Positions 1,985 through 38,318 of a DNA stretch of 38,318 bases are shown one piece after another. The stretch lies in assembly GCA_020072965.1 (NCBI GenBank), contig JAIQFY010000064.1, forward strand, positions 1 through 38,318. The letters are read 5' to 3'. Below the pieces are notes generated by a model. It was not told the origin of the DNA, made no database searches, and worked only from the letters and a program-made list of their open reading frames with translations. The position numbers and the translations under genes were made by a program. Source of the DNA: Terriglobia bacterium. GTDB taxonomy: Bacteria; Acidobacteriota; Terriglobia; JAIQFV01. Numbering within the stretch: the stretch's first letter is position 1; each line of letters starts with the position of its first letter.

Positions 1985-2156
1985 GGTAGTCCTGAAAAAC
2001 CCTTTTCGCGGCGATCCACTCAAATAAAGCATGTTAACATATCGCATGCCACTGACGAAGTTCGCCGGCTTCGACTGGAGAGAGCTGCGCCGACTCTCAA
2101 AAGGCCTCCGTTTTTTTCCCACCCGCTCAACGAGGCATGAAAGAGATCGCTTCCGC

Positions 2157-2939
2157 GTGGCACGGTGCCTCGTCATGACCGGGATGCTCGTCTCTTGCCC
2201 GTTCCGCCTCCCCGCCTCCGACAAATCCCCTTTCACAAACCAGGAACAGCTGGAATACGTCGTCAAATGGGATCCGCCGGGATGGATGTTCTTCATACCC
2301 GAAGTTACGGCAGGCAAACTTGCCTTTACTGTCAAAGAAGGTGCTGCTGACGAAGGCAGCCTTGTCCATCGCTTCCAAGGCTCCGCCATCTCGACGTCTT
2401 CCCTGCTCAAAGTAAACGACATTTTTGATTCCGCCAGCCAGGGAACGGATTTGTGCTCCCTCCGCATGTTGAAGCGCACTCATGAAGGAAAGCGTCATCG
2501 CGAAGTTGAAGTTCAAATCGACAGGGAGAAGAAAACTGCCCGGGTCGTTGAAAAGGATTTGGGCGTGGACCCTCCCAAGACCCTCAGGGACGATACGATC
2601 AAGGATTTTCCGGTTTGCGCAACAGATCTGCTGGGGGCTCTTTACCGGGCAAGGTTATTCCCCTTCCAGCCGGGCGGAGTCTACCAGATTCTCCTGACCG
2701 ACAATGGTCGCACCCAGGAAGTCACGCTCAAACCGATCCAGAAGGAATATATCAAGAATGAGGCCGGATCCTTTTCAACGCAAAAAGTTGAAGTGCAATC
2801 TTTCTTCGGCGGGCTGTTCAAACAGAGGGGGGCGTTCTACATCTGGTTTACTGAAGACGCGCGCCATCTTCCAGTGAAGTTCGAAATGAAGGTGAAGCTC
2901 GGAAAAGTATATGGAAATCTCGTTAAGGTCCAGGAGTAA
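2157..2939 (+). CDS. DUF3108 family exported protein
   Basis: The product resembles DUF3108 proteins, predicted periplasmic beta-rich proteins of unknown function. The family pattern is visible in the C-terminal half: DLLGALYRARLFPFQPG, a valine-rich strand region, FFGGLFKQRGAFYIWFTEDA and a PVKFEMKVKLG ending. Near the N-terminus, VARCLVMTGMLVSC could be a signal peptide. For that reason I place the start at GTG 2157 (260 residues); ATG 2031 in the same frame would give 302 residues, and ATG 2175 is also possible. None has a convincing ribosome binding site. It is divergent from rlmB. Family assignment is fairly safe, function is unknown, and the start is uncertain. Confidence 0.75.
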   Translation: MARCLVMTGMLVSCPFRLPASDKSPFTNQEQLEYVVKWDPPGWMFFIPEVTAGKLAFTVKEGAADEGSLVHRFQGSAISTSSLLKVNDIFDSASQGTDLCSLRMLKRTHEGKRHREVEVQIDREKKTARVVEKDLGVDPPKTLRDDTIKDFPVCATDLLGALYRARLFPFQPGGVYQILLTDNGRTQEVTLKPIQKEYIKNEAGSFSTQKVEVQSFFGGLFKQRGAFYIWFTEDARHLPVKFEMKVKLGKVYGNLVKVQE

Positions 2940-2973
2940 AGGGTCGATTCATCGCGCCTGCTGATGAGTCGAA

Positions 2974-2997
2974 TTCCACCACCAGAAGGTGGCGGAA
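2974..2997. repeat. Palindrome 1 of a local hairpin family
   Basis: TTCCACCACC (2974-2983) pairs with GGTGGCGGAA (2988-2997) with one mismatch around the loop AGAA. It shares the C-run/G-run layout of the three hairpins downstream. Confidence 0.6.
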
Positions 2998-3038
2998 CCT
3001 TCAGACTCAGCCTACCAACAGGCAATCCTCAACATGGA

Positions 3039-3065
3039 AATCCCCCCACCGGCAGATGGTGGATT
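3039..3065. repeat. Palindrome 2 of a local hairpin family
   Basis: CCACC (3046-3050) pairs with GGTGG (3058-3062). It is flanked by AATCCCC on the left and GGATTG on the right, the same right flank as palindromes 3 and 4. Confidence 0.55.
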
Positions 3066-3216
3066 GTTCAATTCCCACCTCTCGGGAAGGCCGGATGTTA
3101 AGACGTGTCGCTTGTGAGCAATGGAATCAGAAGAAAGTCCCATGTTCCTCCGAAAAGGATTGGCTGAGACTCCTCAAGAAGGAGCGGCGACTGGGCTTGG
3201 AGGCGGTATTTGAACT

Positions 3217-3244
3217 ATCCCCCGACTGTCGTCGGGGGGATTGA
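3217..3244. repeat. Palindrome 3 of a local hairpin family
   Basis: ATCCCCCGAC (3217-3226) pairs with GTCGGGGGGAT (3231-3241) with a one-base bulge and a 4-nt loop, followed by TGAAAAC. Confidence 0.65.
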
Positions 3245-3285
3245 AAACAACTGAAGGGGCGGCTCCATTAGGCCGAATCTGAAGG

Positions 3286-3312
3286 TTCCCCCAACTACCG
3301 TTGGGGGGATTG
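3286..3312. repeat. Palindrome 4 of a local hairpin family
   Basis: TTCCCCCAAC (3286-3295) pairs with GTTGGGGGGAT (3300-3310) around TACC. Where it differs from palindrome 3 in the stem (GAC/GTC against AAC/GTT), the change is compensated on the other side, which supports a maintained hairpin. Confidence 0.65.
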
Positions 3313-3547
3313 TCGGGTTTAGCGTCATCTACTACATCATTGTGTCAGGAGGGGTTACTGCCCCCGGTACCAGGCCGGGTATCCTCAAGGAAATCGAAGG
3401 GAGGCATCCTGCAACAGCCGGATGAGAGAAGGAGGTACCCACATTTTTGCCGCCTCCCAAGAAGAACTTCAATGAATCGGAGTCAAGCTCTTTGAAGCTT
3501 CCAAGCTCCCCAGGACCTCCTCCAGATGTTGGACTCTCCCCTATCGC

Positions 3548-4285
3548 TTATTTCGTCAGCAGTTTAAACATCCATCCGCCGTAGACGTCTGACCAGGCAT
3601 GGGCGATCATGCCGGGCCGCAGGTTCTTGCGCCAAGCCGCGAGCACGCCATACAGCACGCCGAGCCCCGTGATGACAACGACCTGTTTTGTCCCCTGATA
3701 CGCATGACCGATTCCGAAGACAACGGCTTGCGCCAGCACGGCCAGCACGATGCTGCCCGTCAACGCCTGAAACTGCTTCTGGAAGTAACCCCGAAAGACG
3801 ATCTCTTCACAGACACCCGCCGACACCGACAAGACGCACCACAGCATGATCTCCAGCGCGCCTTGAGGGAGGAGGGCGTCGATGGGTTTCGCATGACTCG
3901 CCCCCAGCACGTTGTGCATCAATTGGGCCGCCTCTTCCCAGACAAACCAGAAAGGCGCGGCAATAACGAGGTCAAGCCAGACGTCTTTCCAGCTTTTCCA
4001 TCTCCCCCCGGCGAGTTCAAGGATCCCAATCCTTTTCTGCTGGTGCAACCCCACCCAAACGTAGTAGACCAGAGCCCATTCGAGGACAATCATAAATACG
4101 TAGACCGGAGCCATGGCTGGATGCTCCGGCGTCGCGCTCGGGCCGGTGCCTGGCCGGTGTTGCATGTACGCCCCGCCGGCAGCCAAGCCCACCTGAATCA
4201 GGAGAAATATCAGCGTATGGCGCAAGGGGGCGACCAGGGGACGGTCGGGCGTGGGGCGTGAGGGTTCAAGTGCGTCGGTGGCCAT
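3548..4285 (-). CDS. CPBP family intramembrane metalloprotease
   Basis: This 245-residue membrane protein belongs to the CPBP (CAAX protease / bacteriocin-processing, Abi) family, glutamate-dependent intramembrane proteases. All three motifs are present: EEIVFR (E160, E161, R165), FGIGH (F190, H194) and HAWSD (H229, D233). Several hydrophobic segments are visible, for example around residues 24-40, 60-80, 104-118 and 146-158. The ATG at 4285 is preceded by AAGGAGA. The gene lies 9 bp after the PadR gene on the same strand, so the two should be co-transcribed and this protein is the likely target of PadR control. Its substrate is unknown. Confidence 0.88.
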   Translation of the reverse strand: MATDALEPSRPTPDRPLVAPLRHTLIFLLIQVGLAAGGAYMQHRPGTGPSATPEHPAMAPVYVFMIVLEWALVYYVWVGLHQQKRIGILELAGGRWKSWKDVWLDLVIAAPFWFVWEEAAQLMHNVLGASHAKPIDALLPQGALEIMLWCVLSVSAGVCEEIVFRGYFQKQFQALTGSIVLAVLAQAVVFGIGHAYQGTKQVVVITGLGVLYGVLAAWRKNLRPGMIAHAWSDVYGGWMFKLLTK

Positions 4286-4294
4286 GGATTCTCC

Positions 4295-4975
4295 TTAAGG
4301 TCGGGCTCGAGGTGTCTGGGATTTGCGATCTGGGGGCCGAAGAGCCAATTTATGGCGCGGTGGGGCGTGAGGATTCTTGCGGCGGGTGGATTTGGAAACC
4401 CCTGGACGCGTGTGCTTTTCTCTATCCATGCGCGCGCGCAGCCTCCGGATTGATTCGTCGCACGATCTCACGTGACCCCCCAGGGAGAGGATGCCCATCC
4501 GCAGGGTAAGGTGAACGTGAAAATCCGGGGGTGGCAGCTCATCGGGATAGTGCGGATCCGCCTCTACCCAGTAACGCTCCAGCCGGCGCAACGCCTCCAG
4601 TTTCCGGTTGAAATCGTCCCGCAGAACGGTGAAGAACCGCAGGGTCTGTTTCAGATCCCCCAGTTCGTCCATCAAATAGATCTGCGCCAGATAGGCAAAC
4701 CGTTCGTCCCCGATTTCCGGCCCCTTGGCGAGCCAGTCCCGGAGCGCCCGCCGCCCGGCCGTCGTCGTTTCATAAACGCGTCGCCCCGGCCCACGGCTCG
4801 AGACGGCCTGGCAGCAGCGGGCCCAGCCGCGTTTTTCGAGCCGCTTGAGAGTGGGGTAGATCTGGCTCAGTTCCGCGGCCCAGAAGTAGTCGATCCGCTC
4901 GTCAAACACCTTTTTCAAATCGTACCCGCTCGCCGGCTGGCGGAGGAGTCCAAGCAGAATGTGTTCCAGGCTCAT
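4295..4975 (-). CDS. PadR family transcriptional regulator
   Basis: The 226-residue product begins with a PadR winged helix: LEHILLGLLRQPASGYDLKK, then a recognition-helix and wing region (ELSQIYPTLKRLEKRGW, GPGRRVYETTTAGRRAL) at about residues 35-80. A helical PadR C-terminal dimerisation region follows to about residue 180. The last 40 residues are basic and proline-rich and look disordered, longer than in typical family members. PadR proteins are usually repressors of membrane or transport genes beside them, here the CPBP protease. A perfect inverted repeat lies just upstream of its start, suggesting autoregulation. Confidence 0.88.
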   Translation of the reverse strand: MSLEHILLGLLRQPASGYDLKKVFDERIDYFWAAELSQIYPTLKRLEKRGWARCCQAVSSRGPGRRVYETTTAGRRALRDWLAKGPEIGDERFAYLAQIYLMDELGDLKQTLRFFTVLRDDFNRKLEALRRLERYWVEADPHYPDELPPPDFHVHLTLRMGILSLGGHVRSCDESIRRLRARMDREKHTRPGVSKSTRRKNPHAPPRHKLALRPPDRKSQTPRARP

Positions 4976-4983
4976 GAAACCAC

Positions 4984-5001
4984 TATATAACTATTTATAT
5001 A
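4984..5001. promoter_or_regulatory. Candidate PadR operator
   Basis: TATATAA (4984-4990) and TTATATA (4995-5001) form a perfect 7-bp inverted repeat with a 4-bp centre. It starts 8 bp upstream of the padR-like start codon, in an AT-rich island within GC-rich DNA. PadR operators are typically short AT-rich palindromes overlapping their own promoter, and the AT-rich repeat could itself contain the -10 element. Binding is inferred. Confidence 0.5.
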
Positions 5002-5002
5002 A

Positions 5003-5675
5003 ATGTCAACTGTTTTTGAATGTGTCGTCCACCACGCGGGACAGCACTCCAAAGCACTTTGACAGGCGGAATGCAGCTCAGCCGGAGAACGCGTAGTTCT
5101 TCTTGCGGGGGGCGGGCAGCGGGTCGATTCAAACTGCGTGGGAGCTCATGGCGAGAGTAAACAGCAAAAACTGGGAGTGTTTTGGGATGAGGGGGGGGTT
5201 ACACCATGAGCGGGCAGCGCGTCGAGAGGATGGTCCCTATGCTCTGAGCACTCTTACCTGAGTGTGAAATACCGGTCGGCCGATGGGTTGGATTCTCTTG
5301 TTCCGCCGGGGTCAGAAATGATCGGGTGATTTCTAGTACGGGCTTCCCTCGGGCCAGGTCGACAGCGGCAGACAATCGCTTTGGCGGCGTCTTTAGCCAG
5401 TACCTGAGGAGGGAGGGAACGTTCATCGTCCGCGTCTATTCCTCCTTCGTCTCAGGTTTGATTGATTCGGGTGCACGTTAATCTTCATGCGTCGCTTGTT
5501 CCGATTCCCTTTCCGGACGTTGGGCCCACACCCGTTCACATTCATAAAGGCGGTCGCCCGCTGCATCCAGCCGGTCCACTTTGCTTCCGGGCTTTTTTAG
5601 GGCTTGCACTCTCGTAGGCTTTCTCCCTCCTGGAAGATCCGCAAGCGCCAGTCTGGGCCGACAACGTACTCTGAT
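5003..5675. other. Gene-poor stretch upstream of the PadR operon
   Basis: Nothing here is convincingly coding. A minus-strand frame at 5199-5426 (75 codons) has an AAGGAGGA about 13 bases before its ATG. It resembles no family I recognise, and its C-terminal half is low in protein-like character. It may be a small gene or a relic. Confidence 0.4.
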
Positions 5676-5900
5676 TCAGGGCTTTCGCTTCGCATCGCGC
5701 TGCGTAAATGTTTCTACGTTGGCCTGCTCCAGCGGCACCTGAGCAAATGGAAATACCGATTCTTCGGTCGGGGTCAGCCGGGACAGGATGTCAGCGGCCG
5801 AATTCGATAGAAAGTAATCCAGGGATCTCTTCAAAAATTCCTCCTGCTGGGCTTTAAGCTTTTCCGCCATAATTCGCAACTCGATTTCCTCACGATGCAT
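5676..5900 (-). CDS. Small hypothetical protein, predicted helical
   Basis: A 74-codon frame starts at ATG 5900 behind AAGGGGGTGA, a good ribosome binding site. The N-terminal half (residues 1-30) is rich in Glu, Lys, Gln and Leu with helical periodicity (EEIELRIMAEKLKAQQEEFL), as in a short coiled coil. The remainder contains LDYFLSNSAADILSRLTP. I do not recognise a family. It stands alone in a gene-poor region. The binding site and composition make it more credible than neighbouring frames. Confidence 0.5.
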   Translation of the reverse strand: MHREEIELRIMAEKLKAQQEEFLKRSLDYFLSNSAADILSRLTPTEESVFPFAQVPLEQANVETFTQRDAKRKP

Positions 5901-5991
5901 GGTCTCACCCCCTTTCGAATAGATTCTGGGCTGATTTTGAGAACAGGTTCATGCTGCCGGAGCGCAATCCACCATCTGGAGCTATGCGATC

Positions 5992-6031
5992 GGCGGACAC
6001 CGGTCACTCATCAACCCCGGGAGTGTCCGCC
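5992..6031. repeat. Perfect 9-bp inverted repeat, 22-bp loop
   Basis: GGCGGACAC and its exact complement flank 22 bp. No gene reads into it directly. It could be an operator, a small RNA hairpin or the remains of mobile-element ends; the sequence does not decide. Confidence 0.45.
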
Positions 6032-6311
6032 CATGTCGCCCGTCTCCAGAATCTGCGACAATTCTAAGTCTATACCCGGTGCAGTAGATAGCTATGTGTC
6101 GCCCATCACATTCCGGCTGATCCCGGGAAGACCGCGCTTAGCCGCATCCTATATTGGACCTCAGGTTTGTTACAAGAAAGTGACATTGATGAAGGATTCA
6201 TGACCACGAATGGGGGGACGCATATTCGGATTTCATTCCAGTCAAACTGGCAGGGGCGTCTGCCTCGACATCTCGCCGGGCGTGAACGCTCAATCTGCCA
6301 CGCTTCTTCCC

Positions 6312-6354
6312 CAAAAACAAAACGCTCCGGGTTCTGGTAGCAGATCCGGAGCGT
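6312..6354 (-). terminator. Rho-independent terminator of nuoA-nuoB
   Basis: On the minus strand a 9-bp GC-rich stem (ACGCTCCGG/CCGGAGCGT, 6322-6330 with 6346-6354) is followed by GTTTTGTTTTT. It lies about 35 bp past the nuoB stop codon. Confidence 0.85.
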
Positions 6355-6389
6355 CTTACAATCATTGAGAATTGATGACTGAGATTATT

Positions 6390-6935
6390 TCATTTTGCCA
6401 TGGGCATGTATTCCCGGTCCAGGCGAAGCTCGGTGGGGGGCTTTTTGATCTGGCCGACCATGGTCATCCGGTCGATCTTATCTTGCAAGCGCATGATCCC
6501 GTAAAGCAAAGCCTCCGGGCGCGGCGGACAGCCGGGGATATAGACATCGACGGGAACGATCCGGTCCACCCCCTGCAACACCGCGTAAGTCGGGAAGGGG
6601 CCTCCACAGCTGGAGCAGGCGCCCATGGAGATGCACCACTTGGGATCGGGCATCTGGTCCCAGACGCGGCGCAGCACGGGACCCATTTTCAAGGCCACCG
6701 TTCCCGCCACAATCATCAGGTCGGACTGCCGGGGGGAAGGGCGAAAAACCTCAGCCCCAAAGCGGGCGATGTCGAACCGGCTGGCACCCGTCGCCATCAT
6801 TTCAATGGCACAACACGCCAGCCCGAAGGTCATGGGCCAGAGGGCGGACTTGCGCGCCCAGTTCACGACCTGGTCGACGGTCGTCACCAGGAAGTTTCTT
6901 TCCGCGGAAGGGTCTACATAAGAATACGGATCCAT
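6390..6935 (-). CDS. nuoB: NADH-quinone oxidoreductase subunit B
   Basis: NuoB is the hydrophilic subunit of complex I that holds iron-sulfur cluster N2, the last electron carrier before quinone. The four cluster ligands are present as C41-C42 (GLACCAIE), C107 (GACSSCGG) and C136 (PGCPPRPEA). The gaps of 65 and 29 residues equal those in the E. coli protein. Length is 181 residues, normal for the family. nuoA lies 72 bp upstream on the same strand, and a terminator follows. The other complex I genes are not here, so the nuo set is split in this genome. Confidence 0.97.
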
Positions 6936-7007
6936 TCGTTTAATAGCCTCAATTCTCTTCGCTTCGGGATCAATACATCCCGCCCCGCAATCATCCGCGC
7001 CGCTGTG

Positions 7008-7364
7008 CTACACCCATTCCAAGGCGCCTTGCTTCCAAAGCCAGATAAAACCCACTACCAGGATGCCCAGGAAAACGAGCATTTCCATTAATCCAAATAG
7101 GCCCAGAACGTCATACCGAATGGCCCAGGGAAAAAGGAACACAGTCTCCACGTCGAATACGACGAACAGGATGGCGACGATATAGTAACGGACCGTATAT
7201 CGCTCGCGAGGCTGGTAGACGGGATCGACACCACATTCGTACGGGCTGAGTTTTGCCTTATGAGGATCGCTCGGCCGGATCAACCGGAGTAGGGCCAGTG
7301 TGACGAGGGGAAAAAGGCAGCCGAGCGCCATGAACATCAGGATCGGGATATAATTCTTGGGCAT
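7008..7364 (-). CDS. nuoA: NADH-quinone oxidoreductase subunit A
   Basis: NuoA is a small membrane subunit of complex I at the junction of the peripheral and membrane arms. The 118-residue product has three hydrophobic segments at about residues 5-28, 62-82 and 88-112. It carries the family motifs KLSPYECGVDP (with the loop cysteine) and FDVETVFLFPWA. It starts at ATG 7364 with AAGGACCC upstream as a modest binding site and is co-directional with nuoB. Confidence 0.96.
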   Translation of the reverse strand: MPKNYIPILMFMALGCLFPLVTLALLRLIRPSDPHKAKLSPYECGVDPVYQPRERYTVRYYIVAILFVVFDVETVFLFPWAIRYDVLGLFGLMEMLVFLGILVVGFIWLWKQGALEWV

Positions 7365-7528
7365 TCAGGGTCCTTTCGGATAGAGGGTCCAGCCCGCGGA
7401 CACAAGTTCGCTATTCTAATTCTTTTTGCGGGATTTAGGCAATCTGAAATGTGGAAGCAGACATCCCGTTTGCCTTGGTTCGGCTTGCTCTAGGATTGCG
7501 GAAAGAAGAAAACCTCGTCTCGCTCAAT

Positions 7529-7549
7529 GGGCAGACGAGACGTCTGCCC
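7529..7549. repeat. Perfect short palindrome between nuoA and mogA
   Basis: GGGCAGACG (7529-7537) and CGTCTGCCC (7541-7549) form a perfect 9-bp stem with a 3-nt loop, just after the mogA stop codon. No T-run follows in the mogA direction, so it is not a classical intrinsic terminator, though it may protect or end the transcript. Confidence 0.5.
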
Positions 7550-7554
7550 CACCT

Positions 7555-8043
7555 TCAGTGGCCGGTCTTGCCGTGGATGAGATCCAGAGCATGCGGGAGC
7601 AGATCCTGGATGGCGTCGAGACACTCAGCCACTCCCTTCGGGCTCCCGGGTAGATTAACGATGAGAGTTTCCCCGCGGACTCCGACCAGGGCCCGTGAAA
7701 GAAACGCAAAGCGGGTTTGGTGGCTGGATTCGGCCCTCATCAACTCGGCCAGTCCCGGGACATTTTTGTCGATCACTGCCTGAGTGGCCTCCGGCGTCAC
7801 ATCCCGCGGCCCCAGACCCGTCCCGCCGGTAGTGACGATCAAATCGACGGTTCGAGAGCCGGTAATGGCCTTCAGTCGATCGGCAATGCGGCTGACTTCA
7901 TCCGGAACTACTTCGGTCGAGACGACCTGATACCCGAGTTTTTCGAGTTTCTCCTTTGCGGCGGCGCCCGAGAGATCCTGCCGGGTGCCGGCAGCGACAG
8001 AATCACTGATCGTGATGACGGCGGCGCGTCGCGTTGGATTCAT
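7555..8043 (-). CDS. mogA: Molybdopterin adenylyltransferase (MogA/MoaB family)
   Basis: MogA adenylates molybdopterin before MoeA inserts molybdate. The product has the MoCF-binding fold motifs: [37 protein letters not shown] and [10 protein letters not shown] chose ATG 8043 (162 residues) because similarity to the family begins at once after it. The frame continues upstream to a TTG at 8151 with sequence that does not look like protein. It is the last gene of a leftward cluster with moeA, moaC and a response regulator. Separating MogA from MoaB by sequence alone is not secure. Confidence 0.92.
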
Positions 8044-27585: not shown

Positions 27586-28296
27586 TCAGTCGAGGTGCTG
27601 ATGGAGGAACCCGGTCACGCGCCCCCACGCATCTGCGGCGGCATCAACACTGTATACTTCCGGACGCGTGTTGTTGAAGAAGGCGTGCTGGGCGCCGGGA
27701 TAGACGTGCACTTCGCCCGCGATGCCATACTTTTGAATCGCTGACTTGAGGCGGTTCATTTTGTCCACGGTGATCCACGCGTCCTTCTCCCCCCCAATAA
27801 ACAAAAGGGGGCAGCGAATACTCTTGATGGGATCATCGGGATCCGGGATATCGCCATAAAAAGGGGCAGCGGCTTTCAATTCTGGGATGTGGCAGGCCCC
27901 GAGCAAAGCGAAGCTCCCTCCCATGCAAAACCCGGTAATGCCTACACGGCCTGATTTCACATAGGACTGCGGGTGCAGGTACGAAAAGGCAGCCCGGATG
28001 GACCGGATTCCGGCCTCCGGCTTCAATTCACCCATCCAGCGAGAGGCCTGGTCCGCATCCTTGGCAACACGGCCGCCGTATAAATCGACAGCCAGCGTCA
28101 CAAAACCCTCCCTCGCATAGCGCCTCGCCACATCCTTGATGTGATCATTCAATCCCCACCACTCGTGGATCAGAAGAAGGCCGGAAAGAGCCTGGCTGGT
28201 TTTGGGATGGGCCAGATACCCTCCCAGTTCCAGCCCCTCCGATTTAAACTTCATGTCTTTCGCTTCGACTTCGGATTCGGGGTAATTCGGTGACAT
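27586..28296 (-). CDS. Dienelactone hydrolase family protein
   Basis: Dienelactone hydrolases are alpha/beta hydrolases with a cysteine nucleophile. The 236-residue product has the full set: E45 in HEWWGLN, nucleophile C124 in GFCMGGS, D172 in GGEKDAWI and H204 in GAQHAFFN. I chose ATG 28296 because AAGGAGA precedes it; a longer frame reaches 28374. The true substrate is unknown, since most family members are not in aromatic degradation, and no such pathway genes are nearby. Confidence 0.9.
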   Translation of the reverse strand: MSPNYPESEVEAKDMKFKSEGLELGGYLAHPKTSQALSGLLLIHEWWGLNDHIKDVARRYAREGFVTLAVDLYGGRVAKDADQASRWMGELKPEAGIRSIRAAFSYLHPQSYVKSGRVGITGFCMGGSFALLGACHIPELKAAAPFYGDIPDPDDPIKSIRCPLLFIGGEKDAWITVDKMNRLKSAIQKYGIAGEVHVYPGAQHAFFNNTRPEVYSVDAAADAWGRVTGFLHQHLD

Positions 28297-28621
28297 CAAA
28301 ATTTCTCCTTTTCGCAAGGTTTTCCTCAAGGATGATGGTCCTGATCTAAAATTCGTTGACAAACTGGAGGACAAGTAGTTTCATTCGCATAGCAGCATTC
28401 GTTGGCTCGACAGCACAGGCTGCAAGATGTCACTCAGTCCCCAATAAAAATTCCCAGTGCAAGATTGAATGACAAGGTTTCAGCTTTTGCTTCACTGATC
28501 AAGCAGAATTCTTTCTCTCCCGCGTCACTGATTGACTTTTTGGAGGCGCTATTTTACCACCCTCCCATGCCGATGTGAGAAATTGTTCCTTCCCACAATC
28601 CTTGAGCATCAAGTTGGGATT
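28297..28621. other. Divergent intergenic region before the cas operon
   Basis: This region must hold the promoter of the cas operon. TTGACT at 28532-28537 is a possible -35 box, but no -10 box lies at the right distance. TCACTGAT occurs twice (28492-28499 and 28525-28532), 33 bp apart, which could be operator half sites. No gene is supported. Confidence 0.4.
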
Positions 28622-28777
28622 ATGAAAGAAGAGCACGCCGGTCTAATTTACCGCTATTGGGGCAAAGCGAAATCTGCTGATGGCGCCTGGCTGTCTTATC
28701 ATGCGCTCGTCTATCACTGCTTCGATGTGTGGGGTATGGGTGGTCGACGAAGGGCATGTGGGATGGATGATGGATAA
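28622..28777 (+). pseudogene. Fragment resembling a Cas3 N-terminus, upstream of and overlapping intact cas3
   Basis: A 51-codon frame encodes LIYRYWGKAKSADGA, then YHALVYHCFDV, which parallels the first 40 residues of type I-E Cas3 proteins (E. coli Cas3: YWGKS, then LLIYHCLDVAA). After FDVWGMGG the similarity ends and a stop codon follows. The intact cas3 start (ATG 28767) lies inside its last codons, so translation could be coupled. The following cas3 has its own equivalent N-terminus (LASLWAKT, WHPLILHMLDVAA), so this is a second, partial copy rather than a frameshift in the gene itself. It could be a relic of a replaced cas3 or a small expressed peptide. Confidence 0.65.
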
Positions 28778-31430
28778 AGCACTGGCCAGTCTCTGGGCAA
28801 AAACGACCAAAAGCGGAGAATCGAGATGGCATCCCCTCATTCTCCACATGCTGGATGTCGCTGCCAGTGCCGATGCTATCTTGGCGCGTGAACCGCGATT
28901 GACACGCGGAAGGATGGCGGCAATTCTGGGAATGGAGTGGGAAGATGCTCGCGCGTGGCTTTTGCTCGTCATCGCCTGTCATGATCTGGGGAAGGCCTGC
29001 CCTGGATTTCAGTGCAAGTGGAAGAATCTGACTGGGATGGATTCTGGGCGCAGCCCAAATACAGAAATCAACCATGCCTTCGTGAGCCAGATTGCCCTGA
29101 CAGTATTGTTGCAAGAGAAGGGTTGGCCGGATGAATTGGCGGAGTTGGTGGCCGATGCAGTGGGATGTCATCACGGGAGCCGCGCTTCTCCGAACACCCT
29201 CGACCACCTCATGGGCGATAGGCGGGCCATGGGGAGAGACAATTGGACTGAAGCGCGCCGTGCCCTGTTGGAGGCATTACGAGAGGTCTTCAAGCCAGAC
29301 AAGATTCCTGTGAAACAAGACCTATCAGGCCCTGACTTCATGCTGTTATCAGGACTCACGAGCTTTGCCGACTGGATCGGCTCCAACGAGGACTGGTTTC
29401 CCTTCGGGAATCCTGAGGCCTGCGAAGACCTGAAGGAGTGGTTTCAAGAACGCCGAGATTCTGCCGATAAAGCCCTGAATGCAATAGGCTGGGAGCATCG
29501 AGTTCCGCTGTCCTCGGAGCGGAAATCCTTCGAGCAGGTGTTTCGTTTTCCTCCACTCTCTCCACGTCCATTGCAGCAGGCCGTCTCCAACGCTGTGACT
29601 GATTTACAGGGCCCCGCCATCCTCTTGGTGGAAGCACCTATGGGTGAGGGCAAGACCGAGGCGGCTTTCTTTGCGCATCTGGAATTGCAGCGACGTTTCG
29701 GCCACCGCGGTCTATACGTTGCTCTGCCGACCAAAGCCACCGGCAATGCAATGTTCAAGCGAACGCTCAAATTTCTGCGTGACCAAGGCACGGATCGACG
29801 GCTCGACTTGCAACTGCTGCATGGCGGGGCATTGCTGAACGATACATTTCAGGACCTGAAGGTTTCGGGCATACACGATCCCAAAGCGGGTGGCGAGGTC
29901 CGTGCTGCAGAATGGTTCACAAACAAGAAACGGGCGCTTCTTTCAGAATACGGTGTTGGCACCGTGGACCAGGCCCTGCTGCCCATTCTACCGGTGCGGC
30001 ACAACTTTGTCCGCCTATGGGGCCTTGCGAATCGGGTGGTAGTCTTCGATGAGATTCATGCATACGACGCTTACACAGGCACGCTCCTAGTTCACTTGCT
30101 GCGCTGGCTCCTGGCACTGGGCTCGTCGGTGGTGCTTCTCTCTGCGACCCTGTCGCCGTCTATTCGCCGCAAGTTGGGGGATGTAGTTGGTTCTGTCTTA
30201 CCGGAACCAGAGAAGCCATACCCCCGCCTTTCCGTTTTCTGCCCCGGCGAAGAGGTACGGGAAGAACATTTCGAGGCCGATCCCGCGCGTCGTCTGACCC
30301 TACGATTGCATGGAATCCCCCCGGATCTCCCGAGCATGCGTTTCGCATTGGAAGAACATCTTGCACGTGGCGGGATGGGGCTGGCGCTGGTCAATACGGT
30401 GCAGCGTGCCCAAGAGCTGTACCAGCTCTTTCCCCAGGGTGAGCCTCTGGAGCGCGAAGGGCAGCGTGTCGGCAAGCGCCTGTCCGATGGAACGGAGGTG
30501 TTTCTCTTTCACGCCCGCTTCCCGGCCGAAGGACGACAGGAACGCGAGGATCAGGCATTGGAGACCTTTGGGGAAAGTGCAAATCGGACCGGTCGCAAGA
30601 TCCTCATCGCCACTCAGGTTGCGGAACAAAGTCTGGATCTGGACTTCGACCTGATCGCAACCGATCTCGCGCCCATCGATCTCGTTCTCCAGCGGGCGGG
30701 GCGCTTGTGGCGACACGCGCGAAAATCCAGGCCTATTTCCGAACCGATCCTCATGGTGGCGGGACTTGCCGGCGACGAGCCGCCGTCCTTCGCAAAGCCT
30801 CTCTGGTGGGGCGCCGTGTACCGTGAGGATATTCTGTTGCGCACCTGGAGTTTGCTTCGAGACGGACAGAGAAGAAACCTGACGCTGCCGGACGAAATCG
30901 ACACCTTGGTGCAAGCGGTGTACGAAGAACAGGTGCGCGTGTCCGAATTGTTACGGGAGCGGATGGAGAAAGCGTTGAAGGATGCAGATGGAAAAGCCAT
31001 TGCCCACACGGGGCAGGCGAACCAAGCGATCATTGGTTTTCCCGACGATGCATCGTGGGACAATCCGTCGCGATTCGTTCTTTACGACGAAGATGAACCC
31101 GGCGTGCATCGAACCCTCATGGCCCAGACCCGACTTGGCGAGGACTCGATCGTTGCTATCCCGTTATGGCCGGAAGATGGATTCCGTCCTGAAGCGACGC
31201 TAGCGTTCGCTCAGGCGAAACAGTGGTTCCTGCGGGCCGTGAACCTTTCGCGCAAGGGTGTGGTCAAGAGACTCCGGAACGGGGGAGTGCCGGAGGGGTG
31301 GAAGAAATCACCGCTCTTGCGTAATTGTTTTCCTCTGGTTCTGGACCAGCCTGGTCGCTGGGCGGAGGATGCGACGGTGCGACTGGATGGCGACCTGGGG
31401 CTGGTGTACGAGACAAAGGAGGCCGGATGA
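28767..31430 (+). CDS. cas3: CRISPR-associated helicase/nuclease Cas3 (type I-E)
   Basis: Cas3 is recruited by target-bound Cascade and unwinds and degrades the DNA. The 887-residue protein is nearly the length of E. coli Cas3. The N-terminal HD nuclease has H27 (LILHMLDV), H72-D73 with K76 (CHDLGK) and CHHGSRAS further on. The superfamily 2 helicase has motif I APMGEGKTE near 290, DEIH at 428-431, SAT at 459-461 and motif VI QRAGRLWRH at 642-650. All key residues are present, so it should be active. I chose ATG 28767; the frame reaches 28680, but those residues belong to the overlapping fragment's DNA. Its stop overlaps the cas8e start as ATGA. Confidence 0.95.
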   Translation: MMDKALASLWAKTTKSGESRWHPLILHMLDVAASADAILAREPRLTRGRMAAILGMEWEDARAWLLLVIACHDLGKACPGFQCKWKNLTGMDSGRSPNTEINHAFVSQIALTVLLQEKGWPDELAELVADAVGCHHGSRASPNTLDHLMGDRRAMGRDNWTEARRALLEALREVFKPDKIPVKQDLSGPDFMLLSGLTSFADWIGSNEDWFPFGNPEACEDLKEWFQERRDSADKALNAIGWEHRVPLSSERKSFEQVFRFPPLSPRPLQQAVSNAVTDLQGPAILLVEAPMGEGKTEAAFFAHLELQRRFGHRGLYVALPTKATGNAMFKRTLKFLRDQGTDRRLDLQLLHGGALLNDTFQDLKVSGIHDPKAGGEVRAAEWFTNKKRALLSEYGVGTVDQALLPILPVRHNFVRLWGLANRVVVFDEIHAYDAYTGTLLVHLLRWLLALGSSVVLLSATLSPSIRRKLGDVVGSVLPEPEKPYPRLSVFCPGEEVREEHFEADPARRLTLRLHGIPPDLPSMRFALEEHLARGGMGLALVNTVQRAQELYQLFPQGEPLEREGQRVGKRLSDGTEVFLFHARFPAEGRQEREDQALETFGESANRTGRKILIATQVAEQSLDLDFDLIATDLAPIDLVLQRAGRLWRHARKSRPISEPILMVAGLAGDEPPSFAKPLWWGAVYREDILLRTWSLLRDGQRRNLTLPDEIDTLVQAVYEEQVRVSELLRERMEKALKDADGKAIAHTGQANQAIIGFPDDASWDNPSRFVLYDEDEPGVHRTLMAQTRLGEDSIVAIPLWPEDGFRPEATLAFAQAKQWFLRAVNLSRKGVVKRLRNGGVPEGWKKSPLLRNCFPLVLDQPGRWAEDATVRLDGDLGLVYETKEAG

Positions 31431-33025
31431 GCCAATTCAATCTGATTGATGAGAAATGGATCCCGGTGCGATTCCCCGAAGGAACGCGCGATGAACTGGG
31501 CATCCACGATACCTTGGTGCGATCCAAGGAAATCGTGGCCATCGAAGATCCGTCCCCACTGGTGGTCGCGGCCCTGCACCGCTTTCTGGTCGCGGTCCTG
31601 TACCGCGCCCTGGAAGGGCCGACCGACGTCGAACAGGCCAAAGCTTTGTTCAAGGAAGGGTTGCCGGGCGAAAAAATCACAACTTACTTGAACAAATGGC
31701 GGGATCGGTTCTGGCTGTTTGATGAAACGTATCCGTTTGGACAGATTCCAACATTTCAGCCGAAGGCTTGGAAAGCTTGGACGGTTCTTGCTGCCGAGCA
31801 CAATGCCGACAATGCCAAGGTTCTTTTCGATCATGTGGATGTCAATGCGTCTGGTAGCATCACTCCTGCTGCCGCCGTTCGGTGGTTGCTTGCCACCCAG
31901 ACCTTTGCCGTTTCCGCAGGGAAAAGTGAAATCTCGCATACCGGGACGGCTCCGTCGGCTGGCTCTGTAATGACAATTCCTGTCGGGTCAAATTTGCTGG
32001 ATACCCTTCTCTTCTGTCTTGTTCCTCAAAATCGCGTGATAGTGCAAGCCGATATTCCATTGTGGGAAAAGGAACCAGAGTCTCTGGAATATCTGAAAAC
32101 CGCGAATAAAGTGTCTGACAAAAAAACTGGCAAAGAAAAAGTTCGAGCCGTAGAAAGAGGGGCGACTGGGGTTGTCGATCTTTTTACATGGCGAAGCCGT
32201 TCCGTTATTCTTAAGGAATCACTTTCTGGCGGGGTTTCCGACTTGGGTTTTGCATCTGGCATCGGGTACAAGGAGTCGTCGGAGCTTGATCCGATGCTTG
32301 GATACGCTATCGTGGAGGTTGCAGAAGAAGGGACAAAGGAGAAGGTGAAAAAGAGGGTTCCTATTCACTTTGCGGAGAGGGGATTTTGGAGAGATTTTGA
32401 TTCGCTCCTCCCAGATGATGCGCACCTTGCTCCGAGGGTAATTGAACATGCCGTAACACTGACTAAAAAGGACCGCAGGAGGTTGCCAGGGGGTGTGATG
32501 ATCCTTGGACAGAGATATTTTCCCCCTAGACCCAATATCGCTTTTTGGAGAGAAGAGTACTTTGCGCTTCCGGAAGCAATTTCAGGAGATCACTTCATTC
32601 GGACGGAGATTAAACAACTCCTAATGGATGCAGAGGAGGCCCAAAAAAACCTCTGGTTGGCCTGTCGATCCTTTGCACGAGACCTTTTGACCCGAGGGGA
32701 GCGAGAACCTGCTGGCAAGGACATTGGTGCCTTCATAGAACAGATGCCGGTGAATTCATGGTACTGGTCCACTCTTGAATCTCGCTTCCATGAAATCCTG
32801 CACGAGTACACTCTCGAACGAGATTTCGAGGACATCCGCTGCCAGTGGCTGAAGTCCGTACGGGACACCTTGCAAGCCGCCTGGGAGCAGCATCGTGCAT
32901 CGATTTCCACGGGCGATGCCTGGGCTATCCGCGCCTTGGTGAAAGCCGAAGGGCAGGTGCGAAGCAAAGTGAAGGAACTCAGCGATGAGATTATCAAACT
33001 CCAACCACGGAAGGAGGACTCATGA
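31427..33025 (+). CDS. cas8e: Cascade large subunit Cas8e (Cse1/CasA)
   Basis: Cas8e recognises the PAM and recruits Cas3. The 532-residue product opens MSQFNLIDEKWIPVR, the hallmark start of Cse1, followed by WLFDETYPFGQIPTFQP. A four-helix-bundle-like C-terminus includes NSWYWSTLESRFHEIL. It is preceded by AAAGGAGG and overlaps cas3 by 4 bases, so translation is coupled. It is about 30 residues longer than in E. coli. The middle of the gene (about 32030-32640) is visibly more AT-rich than cas3. Confidence 0.94.
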   Translation: MSQFNLIDEKWIPVRFPEGTRDELGIHDTLVRSKEIVAIEDPSPLVVAALHRFLVAVLYRALEGPTDVEQAKALFKEGLPGEKITTYLNKWRDRFWLFDETYPFGQIPTFQPKAWKAWTVLAAEHNADNAKVLFDHVDVNASGSITPAAAVRWLLATQTFAVSAGKSEISHTGTAPSAGSVMTIPVGSNLLDTLLFCLVPQNRVIVQADIPLWEKEPESLEYLKTANKVSDKKTGKEKVRAVERGATGVVDLFTWRSRSVILKESLSGGVSDLGFASGIGYKESSELDPMLGYAIVEVAEEGTKEKVKKRVPIHFAERGFWRDFDSLLPDDAHLAPRVIEHAVTLTKKDRRRLPGGVMILGQRYFPPRPNIAFWREEYFALPEAISGDHFIRTEIKQLLMDAEEAQKNLWLACRSFARDLLTRGEREPAGKDIGAFIEQMPVNSWYWSTLESRFHEILHEYTLERDFEDIRCQWLKSVRDTLQAAWEQHRASISTGDAWAIRALVKAEGQVRSKVKELSDEIIKLQPRKEDS

Positions 33026-33540
33026 ACGGATTCATCAAATGGCTGGAAGGCCTGAGTGAAAGAGACACCAAAGTGCGGGCGGTGTTGCGTCGAAGTCTCG
33101 CATTCGACCCGGGAAGATTTGCTCCAGCCTATCCCTACGTCGAACCCTTCGTAAAGGATGAAGATAATTACTGGCGGCGGGAGATGTTCTACCTTGTGGC
33201 CGGCCTCTGGGCCGCACACTGGCGCGAAGGCCGGAGCGGAGCGGCAATGCCCATCGGGAAGGCCTGTGCGGCTTACCAAATGGCCAACGGATCCCCGAGT
33301 ACCGAACGCCGCTTCATCAATCTACTGGATGCCGATTACGATCAGTTGTCACAGCGCCTGCGCCAGATGCTTAGTCTTCTCAAGGACCAAGCCATCGACT
33401 TCGACGACCTATTGAAGAGGCTCCTGTACTGGAACGATGATCAGAAACGCACCCAGAATGCCTGGGCCCGCGACTTCTACCGCACCCTGAGCAGGAAAAC
33501 CGATACCGAGAATTACACTAATAAGGAGACCAGCGAATGA
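33022..33540 (+). CDS. cse2: Cascade small subunit Cse2 (CasB, Cas11e)
   Basis: Cse2 forms the dimer that lines the belly of Cascade and stabilises the displaced strand. The 172-residue helical protein has the family's YLVAGLWAAHWREG and ERRFINLLDADYDQLSQRLRQMLSLLK segments, the latter near residues 94-121. It overlaps cas8e by 4 bases (ATGA) and has a GGAGG upstream. Position and length agree with the assignment; this family is otherwise poorly conserved. Confidence 0.93.
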   Translation: MNGFIKWLEGLSERDTKVRAVLRRSLAFDPGRFAPAYPYVEPFVKDEDNYWRREMFYLVAGLWAAHWREGRSGAAMPIGKACAAYQMANGSPSTERRFINLLDADYDQLSQRLRQMLSLLKDQAIDFDDLLKRLLYWNDDQKRTQNAWARDFYRTLSRKTDTENYTNKETSE

Positions 33541-34661
33541 AAACAATTATCGAGATTCATGCCCTTCAAAACTTTGCCCCGTCAAATCTCAACCGTGACG
33601 ACACAGGAGCACCCAAAGACGCCATCTTTGGTGGTAGTCGGCGCGCCCGAGTATCCAGTCAGTGCTCCAAGCGAGCGGTACGGGAGTACTTCAAGGAACA
33701 CAATAAGGAATGGGTGGCCAGTAGAACGAAGCGTATTGTGGATGATCTCAAGAAACGCGTGTCCCCGAAGCTGAAGAATCATACGGACTTCTCGGAGGAA
33801 AATTTGGCAAAGGCAATAGAAGTTGCCGTGTGCAACCTCGGGAGTGACAAAAAGGTCAAGGTAGACAAGGAAAGGAAGACGGACGTATTACTATTCCTGA
33901 GCCCAAGGGAAATCGATGCACTGGAAAGCGTCATTACAGAATCCTATGGCGATCTTCTCAAAAAAAGACCTTCGGACGAAGTTGTGAAAAAACTGAATGA
34001 TGCAATCGATGGAGAAAACAAGTCGCGGTTGAGCGTGGATGTTGCGTTGTTCGGACGCATGTTAGCTGTAATGCCCGAAAAGAACCAGAACGCCGCTTGC
34101 CAAGTAGCCCATGCCATTTCGACTCATGCCGTCGAGCGGGAATTTGATTTCTACACTGCCGTCGACGACCTCAAACCCGAGGATACTGCCGGCGCTGACA
34201 TGATGGGCACGGTTGAATTCAATTCGGCCTGTTTCTATCGCTATGCCGTTGTCGACTGGGACAAGCTCGTGAAAAATCTCCAGGGCGATACGGAACTTGC
34301 AGCAGGGGGACTCCGGGCTTTTCTGGAAGGTTTCGTGGTGGCTGAACCTACCGGCAAGCAGAACACTTTTGCGGCTCACAATCCGCCCGAGTTTGTGGCC
34401 ATTTCGGTGCGGCACAGCAGCGCGCCTCGAAACCTTGCTAATGCATTTGAGAAAGCCATACGCGTGAAAAAGGATGAATCGCTGACCAGAAGATCAGCAG
34501 AGGAGCTTGCCAAGAAAGCCAAGGCTCTGCAGGATGCATTTGGTGGTGAGGAAAGGACCTTTGTCCTTAACCTGGCTGAGGCAGAGCTCAACGGATTTGG
34601 GGACTCCGCTCCGTCCCTGAAGGAGCTTCTTGACAAAACCCTTTCGGTAGTAAAGGAGTGA
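33537..34661 (+). CDS. cas7e: Cascade backbone subunit Cas7e (Cse4/CasC)
   Basis: Six Cas7e copies form the crRNA-binding backbone of Cascade. The 374-residue RAMP protein starts IIEIHALQNFAPSNLNRDDTGAPKDAIFGG with RARVSSQC, as in CasC of E. coli. It also has ALFGRMLAVMPEKNQNAACQVAHAISTH and GADMMGTVEFNSACFYRYAVVD. It overlaps cse2 by 4 bases and GGAGA lies before its ATG. The first half is more AT-rich than the cas3 gene. Confidence 0.95.
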   Translation: MKTIIEIHALQNFAPSNLNRDDTGAPKDAIFGGSRRARVSSQCSKRAVREYFKEHNKEWVASRTKRIVDDLKKRVSPKLKNHTDFSEENLAKAIEVAVCNLGSDKKVKVDKERKTDVLLFLSPREIDALESVITESYGDLLKKRPSDEVVKKLNDAIDGENKSRLSVDVALFGRMLAVMPEKNQNAACQVAHAISTHAVEREFDFYTAVDDLKPEDTAGADMMGTVEFNSACFYRYAVVDWDKLVKNLQGDTELAAGGLRAFLEGFVVAEPTGKQNTFAAHNPPEFVAISVRHSSAPRNLANAFEKAIRVKKDESLTRRSAEELAKKAKALQDAFGGEERTFVLNLAEAELNGFGDSAPSLKELLDKTLSVVKE

Positions 34662-34664
34662 CCT

Positions 34665-35360
34665 ATGCCTACCTTGCTGCTTCGTCTGGTCGGTCCAATG
34701 CAATCGTGGGGAACCACCAGTCGATTTGATCAACGAGATACAGGGAAGGAGCCGAGCAAGTCCGGGGTGATTGGACTCTTAGCCGCTGCAATGGGGATCG
34801 ATCGCGAGAACTGGATCGATTTGGAAGCGCTCGCGCACTTGTGTATGGGGGTTCGTCACGATCGGTCGGGGGTGCCCAAGCGGGACTACCAGACAGCAGG
34901 ATGCGCCGAAAGTGACACCATCATCAAGGCGGATGGAACCCAAGCCAAGGATGGTGTTGTTTCTCAGCGATTCTATCTTGCCGATGCGGCTTTTCTTGTC
35001 GGTTTGGAATGCAAGGAGCGCCCATTCCTGGAACAGGCTCACACCGCCCTGCGCAACCCTGTATGGCCTCTCGCCTTGGGACGTAAATCCTACGTCCCAT
35101 CCGAGCAGATCTGGATTGAAAACGCCTTGCAGGACGCTCCGTTGCGGGACGTCTTGGCACGGTGGCCATGGATTGCGTCACCGCGAAAATGGGAAGAGCT
35201 CCCAGAGAAACTATTGGTCTCCTTTGAATCCGAGGATGGGTCGGGCGTGCTCAAGATGGACCAACCCCTATCATCATTTGCCGAACGACGCTTTGGGGCG
35301 CGGTTCGTGCGCTCGGAGTGGATCCTTTTCCCTCAGGAGGGGACAAATGTTCCTGCATAG
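34665..35360 (+). CDS. cas5e: Cascade subunit Cas5e (CasD)
   Basis: Cas5e caps the 5' handle of the crRNA and contacts Cas8e. The 231-residue product starts PTLLLRLVGPMQSWGTTSRFDQRDTGKEPSKSGVIGLLAAAMG, the typical CasD opening. It also has GVRHDRSGVPKRDYQTAG and PLALGRKSYVPSEQIW. The start at ATG 34665 follows AAAGGAGTGACCT, just after the cas7e stop. It overlaps cas6e by 14 bases. Confidence 0.95.
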   Translation: MPTLLLRLVGPMQSWGTTSRFDQRDTGKEPSKSGVIGLLAAAMGIDRENWIDLEALAHLCMGVRHDRSGVPKRDYQTAGCAESDTIIKADGTQAKDGVVSQRFYLADAAFLVGLECKERPFLEQAHTALRNPVWPLALGRKSYVPSEQIWIENALQDAPLRDVLARWPWIASPRKWEELPEKLLVSFESEDGSGVLKMDQPLSSFAERRFGARFVRSEWILFPQEGTNVPA

Positions 35361-36021
35361 AATTCATCTTGATCCGCGATGTCGGGAGGCTCGACGTGAC
35401 CTGGCAGACCCCTACCAGCTTCATTCGACATTGTGTCGGGCATTCAGCAAGCCGGACACGAAGTGCCCTGAAGGTCAATTTTTGTGGAGGCTGGAGCCGG
35501 AGATAGACCCAACCGGGTGTCCGCGCATTCTTTTGCAAAGCCGAACGATGCCGGACTGGACAGGCATTGGCGTGAAGGGATGGCTTGCCAATGCTGATCC
35601 GGCTATCGATCTGAACGAGAGACTTAAGATCAATTCGTTCAGGGTCGGACATCGTTTTCGATTCAGGCTTCGCGCCAACCCCTGTGTGACCCGCAATGGC
35701 AAGCGTTTGGGGTTGCTACGGCTGGAGGAGCAAGAAACATGGGTTAAGCGAAAAGGGCAGCAGCATGGTTTTTCGTTACCGCAATCGGCATCCTTCGATC
35801 TTTCAGAATCGCCGCAGGAGCGAGTTGATGTCCGGATTTCCCAGGAGCAGATGCTCCGAGGGAACCAGCACTCTAGTAATGCAATAGAGATTTTTTCAGT
35901 GCTGTACGACGGGATTCTCACAATTACGGATCCAGACAATTTCAGAATGGTGCTGCAATTAGGCATCGGGCATGGCAAGGTAATGGGTCTTGGGCTGCTC
36001 TCGGTGGCGCGTGTAGCATGA
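35347..36021 (+). CDS. cas6e: crRNA-processing endoribonuclease Cas6e (Cse3/CasE)
   Basis: Cas6e cuts the CRISPR transcript in each repeat and stays on the 3' hairpin of the crRNA in Cascade. The 224-residue product has H26 in DPYQLHSTLCRAF, the position of the catalytic histidine in known Cse3 proteins. The C-terminal glycine-rich loop is GIGHGKVMGLGLLSV. ATG 35347 is preceded by AGGAGG at the ideal distance. The expected cut, after the 21st base of the repeat, would leave the handle AUGAACCG. Confidence 0.94.
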   Translation: MFLHRIHLDPRCREARRDLADPYQLHSTLCRAFSKPDTKCPEGQFLWRLEPEIDPTGCPRILLQSRTMPDWTGIGVKGWLANADPAIDLNERLKINSFRVGHRFRFRLRANPCVTRNGKRLGLLRLEEQETWVKRKGQQHGFSLPQSASFDLSESPQERVDVRISQEQMLRGNQHSSNAIEIFSVLYDGILTITDPDNFRMVLQLGIGHGKVMGLGLLSVARVA

Positions 36022-36250
36022 GGGAGTTTTGGCATGGGACCCGCCAAAGCATTCGAGTGCGGTCTGATGTTGGTGCGACACGCTTGAATTAGAGAAACAA
36101 GAGTCCACAATTGATTGTGTCGACGATTCTCACACAAGCCAGTTCGATGCCGACTTTCAAATGATGATTAAAACGAATGGTGGACTCAACTCTAGTCGGG
36201 CATCGATCGCAAATGACATGATAAAAACACATGGGACCGGAGGAGTGGGA
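36022..36250. other. Gap between cas6e and the HicB-like gene
   Basis: I see no gene, no HicA-like toxin frame and no CRISPR-repeat-like sequence in this stretch. TTGTGT (36115-36120) and ACACAA (36132-36137) form a weak inverted repeat that could be an operator. Confidence 0.4.
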
Positions 36251-36598
36251 ATGGGCGAAATCATTTTACTTGTGGAGGAAGGCCCTAAAGGGGGATTTAT
36301 GGCCAGAGCCCTTGGAGAGTCCATCATCACTGATGCCGACGATATCGAGCCTATTCACCGGCAAGTCCGCGATTCGGTGAATTGCCATTTTGATGAGGGC
36401 GCGTCACCTGACTCATCCGCCTGCAACTTCTACGGGAAGAATTCATCCCATCATGAATCCCCGCGGAGTGTTGTAGGCCGGGTCCCCCGACCCGGCGTCG
36501 TCAAAACTCATAGAAACACGCCGCCTGAGGGCAGGCGGCCTACAACTGGCAGACAACAAATCCAGGGCGTGATTTTGCCCTTGTCAGTGGCAACCTAA
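36251..36598 (+). pseudogene. Decayed HicB-like antitoxin gene between cas6e and cas1
   Basis: From ATG 36251, behind GGAGTGGGA, the frame encodes GEIILLVEEGPKGGFMARAL, then GESIITDADDI and a QVRDSVNCHFDEG segment. This fits the roughly 70-residue HicB-like proteins (often misnamed 2-oxoisovalerate dehydrogenase), which usually end in RLHF plus a short acidic tail. Here the ending is degraded to SACNFYGKN. The frame then runs on for about 50 codons through a double-hairpin repeat whose translation is not protein-like. No HicA toxin is adjacent. HicB-like proteins neutralise or repress; an orphan here may be dead or may act as a regulator. The open frame can be extended to 36161. Confidence 0.6.
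36470..36546. repeat. Double-hairpin (BIME-like) repeat element
   Basis: GTTGTAGGCCG (36470-36480) and CGGCCTACAAC (36536-36546) are perfect inverted ends. Inside lie two hairpins: CCGGGTC/GACCCGG (36478-36484 with 36489-36495) and GCCGCCTG/CAGGCGGC (36520-36527 with 36532-36539). This is the layout of paired REP palindromes. It sits within the extended 3' part of the HicB-like frame, just upstream of cas1. Confidence 0.75.
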
Positions 36599-36605
36599 AG
36601 TACCC

Positions 36606-37806
<1,201 letters not shown>

Positions 37807-37892
37807 ACTGCAATGGTCGTTCCTAGTCACAAAACGTTGGTAAATTCGGGCCTGGGTAACTGATACCCACGAATCAGTGGGTTGCGAGAAGT
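37807..37892 (+). promoter_or_regulatory. CRISPR leader
   Basis: The 86 bp between cas2 and the first repeat should contain the array promoter and the spacer-integration signals. GTTGGTAAATT (37836-37846) resembles GTTGGTAGATT in the E. coli I-E leader and ends exactly 46 bp before the first repeat. Close to the array two overlapping inverted repeats occur: ACCCAC/GTGGGT (37865-37870 with 37877-37882) and CTGAT/ATCAG flanking the same core. The AT-rich IHF-binding tract of the E. coli leader is not evident. Confidence 0.75.
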
Positions 37893-38318
37893 GTGTTCCC
37901 CACGCGCGTGGGGATGAACCGAACTTCTTCCGCTCTTCGATGATCGTCTTTTTGTGTTCCCCACGCGCGTGGGGATGAACCGACTTTCCGGCGCCCTTGG
38001 AGAATTAGGACTTGGTGTTCCCCACGCGCGTGGGGATGAACCGATAGATCGTATGGTAATTACGAATCATTTCCTGTGTTCCCCACGCGCGTGGGGATGA
38101 ACCGATTATGTCCCCGATTACGAAGGACCAAATCAAGTGTTCCCCACGCGCGTGGGGATGAACCGAGCCAGCAAACGCGCCGCTGATCCTTGCGCGGGTG
38201 TTCCCCACGCGCGTGGGGATGAACCGATCCTCGCTGCTTCCGTCACCGTAATGAACATGTGTTCCCCACGCGCGTGGGGATGAACCGTCCTTCGCCATTG
38301 TCGGCTACCACATCAGCG
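37893..38318 (+). CRISPR. Type I-E CRISPR array, leader end (continues past the window)
   Basis: Seven identical 29-bp repeats start at 37893, 37954, 38015, 38076, 38137, 38198 and 38259, with six complete 32-bp spacers and a partial seventh (38288 on). The repeat starts GTGTTCCCC, has the 16-nt palindrome CCCCACGCGCGTGGGG at its centre and ends ATGAACCG, the expected 8-nt crRNA handle. It belongs to the E. coli I-E repeat class. No repeat carries a substitution, as expected at the leader-proximal end. All spacers differ from each other; their targets are unknown. Confidence 0.99.

Follow-up and report, generated by a model that had tools for sequence, protein, structure and literature searches.

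Results and Discussion

The window (the whole 38,318-nt stretch that was analysed; all bare coordinates count from its first letter) holds a type I-E CRISPR operon in which a new effector cassette lies between two remnants, an old cas3 head and an old cas6e tail, both of one effector lineage. It is very probable (about 0.9) that a foreign I-E effector cassette replaced the resident one in place and left these two ends behind. The earlier occupant of the locus would have been a YWGK-lineage type I-E system, and a foreign I-E cassette of the LWAK lineage, from cas3 to cas6e, would have been swapped in at the same place. The left join would have set the incoming cas3 start within the first ~36 codons of the resident cas3. 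The right join would fall in the final ~16 codons of the resident cas6e, immediately past the incoming cas6e stop, and the resident cas1, cas2 and array would have been retained. The old cas3 head is probably still the source of the resident signals, namely promoter, ribosome-binding site and start codon. The frame of the head stays open as far as the new cas3 start, and ribosomes that end the 51-codon peptide there could therefore restart on cas3 by translational coupling. The sequences show the two scars and their lineage, the edges of the cassette, the conserved adaptation module and, in Nitrospira, the same process with both flanks; the mechanism of recombination, the capture of the promoter and the coupling are steps that we infer.

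The first-pass annotation had proposed that an incoming operon replaced an older one and left about 40 codons of it. The replacement stands on the cas6e tail, the mismatch of Cas3 lineages, the retained cas1-cas2-array and loci from Nitrospira, but the unit exchanged was the cassette from cas3 to cas6e and not the whole operon.

The cas3 head

The stub is an open frame of 51 codons (28622..28777, + strand) that translates as MKEEHAGLIYRYWGKAKSADGAWLSYHALVYHCFDVWGMGGRRRACGMDDG up to the stop codon. The stop (28775-28777) sits within the start region of the intact cas3, overlapping its start, and the frame thus ends 8 bases into that gene (ATG at 28770), as had been noted. Residues 1-36, MKEEHAGLIYRYWGKAKSADGAWLSYHALVYHCFDV, are Cas3-like and form the head of an old cas3 of the YWGK I-E lineage (28622..28729, + strand; 36 codons from its start codon). 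Residues 37-51 are a linker without Cas3 similarity.

The first-pass annotation had read the frame as opening like a I-E Cas3, and a profile search of the 51 residues against Cas3 families bore this out by matching Cas3 at its N-terminus. The match to the NCBIfam Cas3 profile PRK09694 covers positions 6-34 (E=2e-5). The match to Pfam Cas3_HD (positions 1-25, E=0.006) is under the curated cut-off, as expected for one only 27 residues long. We also built our own HMM of the Cas3 N-terminus to score the stub and upstream regions. The stub scores 29.6 bits with this model. The controls reached no more than 9.1 bits, with each surveyed upstream region (450 nt) shuffled 20 times by dinucleotides, and 3.2 bits on the reverse strand. 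A phmmer search of the stub peptide against the PDB gave only chance matches to antibody chains.

Like type I-E Cas3 (PRK09694, Cas3_HD), the stub aligns to the Cas3 start over its first 36 residues. Unlike it, the stub covers just Cas3_HD positions 1-25 of 207, ends ahead of the HD motif and has no helicase domain. It is a remnant and not a functional Cas3. The stub scores 102 against a full-length YWGK-lineage Cas3 (L078) and 43 against the window's own Cas3, which is of a different I-E lineage (LWAK); it is therefore not a copy of the adjacent gene. Searches of the window's own genome found the stub as a single occurrence, with no second copy, and no second cas3. No remainder of the old cas3 was found downstream.

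The region upstream of the stub (28297..28621, + strand) is presumed, from its position alone, to hold the resident promoter and ribosome-binding site. A scan of the upstream sequence for promoters and terminators gave + strand promoter signals no better than chance.

The incoming cassette and the cas6e tail

The operon reads cas3-cas8e-cas11-cas7-cas5-cas6e-cas1-cas2-CRISPR array, all on the + strand. The intact incoming cas3 (28770..31430), of the LWAK I-E lineage, encodes 886 residues from the ATG at 28770. A length of 887 residues had been given previously, and holds for a possible alternative in-frame ATG at 28767. It is followed by the incoming cas8e (31427..33025), cas11 (33022..33540), cas7 (33537..34661), cas5 (34665..35360) and cas6e (35347..36021; PF08798, E=9.5e-50; TIGR01907, E=1.8e-25). 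The left and right edges of the replaced cassette are at cas3 and cas6e. DNA homology between the window and L166, a locus in a genome (G533) that also holds L083, runs from 28769, adjoining the cas3 start codon, to 36077, just beyond cas6e, with internal gaps, and returns at cas1. For the window's cas3, the closest relatives found belong to other groups, namely a Verrucomicrobiales MAG (82%) and a Nitrospirae MAG (75%).

Reading on from the intact cas6e stop (36019-36021), positions 36022-36087 translate as GSFGMGPAKAFECGLMLVRHA up to a stop codon. Within this lies the tail of an old YWGK-lineage cas6e (36031..36087, + strand; GMGPAKAFECGLMLVRHA and stop; last 16 residues). The C-termini of YWGK-lineage Cas6e proteins for comparison are GIGPAKAFGCGLMMVRRL (L167), GIGSAKAFGCGLMLVRRV (L224) and GIGPAKAFGCGLLLVRRC (L225). 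The tail scores 72 against the YWGK lineage and 27 against the window's own Cas6e, and the best score among 1000 dinucleotide shuffles of the gap was 40. It matches the very end of both Cas6e profiles (PF08798 positions 207-222 of 223, E=0.001; TIGR01907 positions 191-206 of 208, E=0.02). L166 and L022 likewise carry a cas6e tail. A conserved noncoding motif 3' of cas6 was considered and rejected, as the sequence codes for the end of the old Cas6e. The cassette has a cas3 head on one side and a cas6e tail of the same lineage on the other, which argues that cas3-cas8e-cas11-cas7-cas5-cas6e was replaced in place.

Between cas6e and cas1 there is a 145-codon frame (36161-36598) with a HicB-like look (EIILLVEEGPKGGFMARALGESIITDADD) and no Pfam match. 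Part of it is common to G001, a same-genus genome, at 75%. Small unrelated genes also lie between cas6 and cas1 in L162 and L164.

The retained adaptation module

The resident cas1 (36606..37517, + strand) and cas2 (37498..37806, + strand) were assigned with the Cas1 and Cas2 models, and their proteins are 98% and 97% identical to those of G001, a sister species. Only the start of the CRISPR array (37892..38318, + strand) is present, since the contig ends there. Related genomes were compared at the junction, as the first-pass annotation had suggested. G001 has the upstream neighbour gene, which in the window occupies 27586-28374, at 88% DNA identity up to window position 28281 and the cas1-cas2-array at 89%, but has no effector genes at the site and carries unrelated genes in their stead. 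At this locus (L279:8366-14889) the unrelated genes are on the minus strand, and the cas1-cas2-array forms a stand-alone adaptation module. No intact resident YWGK system was found at this site in the relatives compared (one same-genus and one same-family genome). The former system of the window, as we infer from its two ends, was type I-E and belonged to the YWGK lineage.

Cas1 is 67-81% identical to loci of both effector lineages. The effectors are about 50-83% identical within a lineage and 26-40% between lineages, with the exception of cas6 of L165 and L024 (36-39%). Both lineages thus have the adaptation module in common, as would be the case if effectors alone were exchanged.

Cas3 heads at other loci

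We searched the 1500 nt upstream of cas3 at 147 I-E and I-C loci with full-length and N-terminal HMMs. Cas3 N-terminal heads were present at 19 of the 147. These comprise the window itself and 7 of 18 close relatives of its cas3, 3 of 24 I-E loci of the Stutzerimonas class and 8 of 55 I-C loci of the Nitrospira phylum; there were none among 46 loci in the phylum of L016 or 3 others. Six of the 19 (L014, L021, L025, L083, L144 and L155) are weak alone and rest partly on reading of the sequence. The shuffle control of this search (5 shuffles of each locus) reached a maximum of 7.7 bits. The close relatives were picked by similarity to the window's cas3, and draft metagenome assemblies are among the genomes. 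Counts of events are approximate, as L014 and L018 share a junction and L143 and L146 probably do.

Nearly all heads start at or near the Cas3 start, end at residues 12 to 74, and end ~75 nt or less from the N-terminus of the intact gene; L091 and L155 have inner parts of the head region only. At L014, L015, L018 and L091 a I-C head stands before an intact I-E gene, and the piece in L015 matches Cas3c at 5e-8. Searches with full-length HMMs and tblastn found no longer remnants of the old cas3 at the head junctions. Longer or more distant remnants are rare: a tandem cas3 in L178, pieces ~1 kb off in L132, and a complete other cas3 upstream in L025. In the last of these (Stutzerimonas), the complete cas3 is of another lineage (1625-4417), and the head and second cas3 (4986-7670) follow it at a distance of ~570 bp, with an antitoxin-like gene (4414-4770) between the two cas3 genes.

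Replacement is seen with both flanks in a Nitrospira family, where L218 is an intact I-C system and L160 a I-E system with a common upstream flank. L160 keeps ~25 codons of the I-C cas3 start (L160:4576-4648 corresponds to L218:8611-8683, 86%), and the two loci also have a common flank past the array (L160:13994-14534 and L218:17864-18404, 82%). Between L169 and L218 the effector genes alone differ, and cas4-cas1-cas2-array is 88% identical. Compared as sequences, these three loci directly prove in-place replacement. The flanks are common, the systems inside differ and a head is left, so the heads are leftovers of the in-place replacement of a resident system. Two limits apply to this reading of the window: its cas6e tail is only 16 residues long, and the two-flank case comes from another phylum.

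Possible translation through the head

The head may above all be a functional translated leader, kept by selection because it delivers ribosomes to cas3. A translated leader coupled to cas3 was the alternative offered by the first-pass annotation. This is compatible with replacement, and we regard it as possible though somewhat doubtful. At 15 of 17 independent junctions the head frame is open and its stop lies at -15 to +12 of the new start, against 8.1 expected from shuffled linkers (P=5e-5), where the range was set after the data were seen and the start codon of L194 is uncertain. The window has the overlap; L013 and L269 do not fit the geometry. Relatives carry differing heads and hence have no single conserved peptide. 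Where heads have a junction in common, pN/pS is 0.13-0.26, a synonymous bias confounded by recombination inside the head. We dropped pN/pS as evidence of selection, as loci with the same junction turned out to have unrelated leaders.

Short upstream open reading frames can be coupled to the next gene, with a stop that overlaps the next start codon. The stub resembles these in that its stop overlaps the cas3 start codon. It differs from them in that it originates as a gene remnant, with no conserved regulatory peptide. That translation of the stub is coupled to cas3 has, in our estimate, slightly less than an even chance.

Possible exchange within the head

A leftover head may also act as a recombination joint, a short homology arm for the later swapping of defence systems and their spread from strain to strain. 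We judge this less likely than not, and slightly less likely than the translated leader. The evidence for it is from the family of G1120 (175 genomes; Nitrospira), where the I-C cas3 head occurs many times without its gene, often twice per locus. The genes that follow it there are those for type I R-M methylases (L262, L266), a HmaA-like helicase (L264), Cas8c and Cas5c from other I-C operons (L263, L276), and Cas7g (L271) and Cas3g (L272) of type I-G.

Pairwise DNA identities were calculated for the leader, the 72-nt stub and the following DNA; the median for shuffled leaders is 0.45. In this order they are 0.45, 0.86 and 0.83 for L014-L018, and 0.84, 0.89 and 0.43 for L014-L143. The values are 0.47, 0.82 and 0.88 for L266a-L267a, 0.48, 0.83 and 0.74 for L262b-L266b, and 0.92, 0.82 and 0.52 for L266b-L267i. 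One leader is thus found with differing downstream systems, and one downstream system with differing leaders. These identities point to recombination inside the stub. This reassortment is the main reason to think that a leftover head aids later exchange by homologous recombination. It is seen with Nitrospira I-C heads, however, and not in the window or in I-E heads elsewhere, and the ends of the heads vary over residues 12 to 74.

Taken more widely, the first 25-75 codons of cas3 could be a recurrent bacterial joint for the exchange of whole defence systems. The old head would keep the resident expression signals and hand ribosomes to the first incoming gene, and then serve as a short homology arm that spreads the new system to other strains. 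Stacked heads (CRISPR I-C, I-E and I-G, type I R-M, Hma-like) would be successive replacements. We put this forward tentatively, with the odds somewhat against it.

The stub adjoins cas3 and is of the same family, as would be a piece of the window's own cas3 start that arose by tandem duplication or frameshift, but its score of 43 against its own Cas3 and 102 against the other lineage led us to reject this origin as highly improbable; some relatives have a I-C head before a I-E gene, and the cas6e tail, too, belongs to the other lineage. For a short segment in a draft genome of 108 contigs, chance similarity or an assembly artefact might be suspected, but is equally improbable given a score of 29.6 bits where shuffles reach no more than 9.1, unrelated genomes with the same arrangement and a junction that lies inside the contig.

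Relation to known exchange

In situ exchange of effectors with the adaptation module and array fixed is already on record, with the arms race against viruses given as its cause. It was reported both among the variants of a single subtype and from one subtype to another, with cas6 and cas1 as attractor genes (PMC6452270). As in that exchange, the effector genes of the window were replaced, and cas1-cas2 and the array kept. Unlike in that exchange, the window's cas6e was swapped along with the effectors, the joints are readable on both sides (cas3 head, cas6e tail), and the head recurs across phyla. For the window, a relative (G001) has the conserved adaptation module and array at the same site, and the effectors are of a lineage other than the former one (YWGK scars, LWAK cassette). 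An intact former system at the same site in a relative was found in Nitrospira but not for the window.

Our literature searches, with many journals outside their coverage, returned no description of cas3 remnants or operon-replacement scars. Within the same partial coverage there was none of cas3-head/cas6-tail scars, cross-phylum recurrence, or stacked heads before other defence systems. The scars appear to be new, as do the recurrent joint at the cas3 head and the apparent coupling of translation. Earlier exchange inferences rested on gene order and phylogeny (PMC6452270), whereas here the scars reveal the identity of the lost system. With the joints visible on both sides and the lost system readable, it becomes testable across genomes how fast, in which direction and by what mechanism defence systems turn over. 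The findings point to the cas3 start as a preferred joint. They are also a warning for annotation, which will overlook such short frames or treat them as spurious genes.

Further observations at Nitrospira loci

Stacked heads with two leader types are present at L262 (4152 and 5214), L266 (5346 and 6270), L263 (4535 and 6682), L264 (5370 and 7519) and L265 (5683 and 6655), numbered in the orientation of each fragment. They precede type I R-M, Cas8c or helicase genes and read as a record of successive replacements.

In alignments, many heads of the Nitrospira family end at the RAVG codons (DNA GCGGTGG), which form the end of the conserved block. The Chi octamer of E. coli is GCTGGTGG. GCGGTGG is somewhat Chi-like and is a possible recombination hot spot.

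From L265:6661 onwards, a I-C head is followed by a I-E cas3 that ends after ~25 codons and is fused to CRISPR-repeat-like sequence (RVPRASGDEP). Here a whole I-E operon was apparently deleted into its array.
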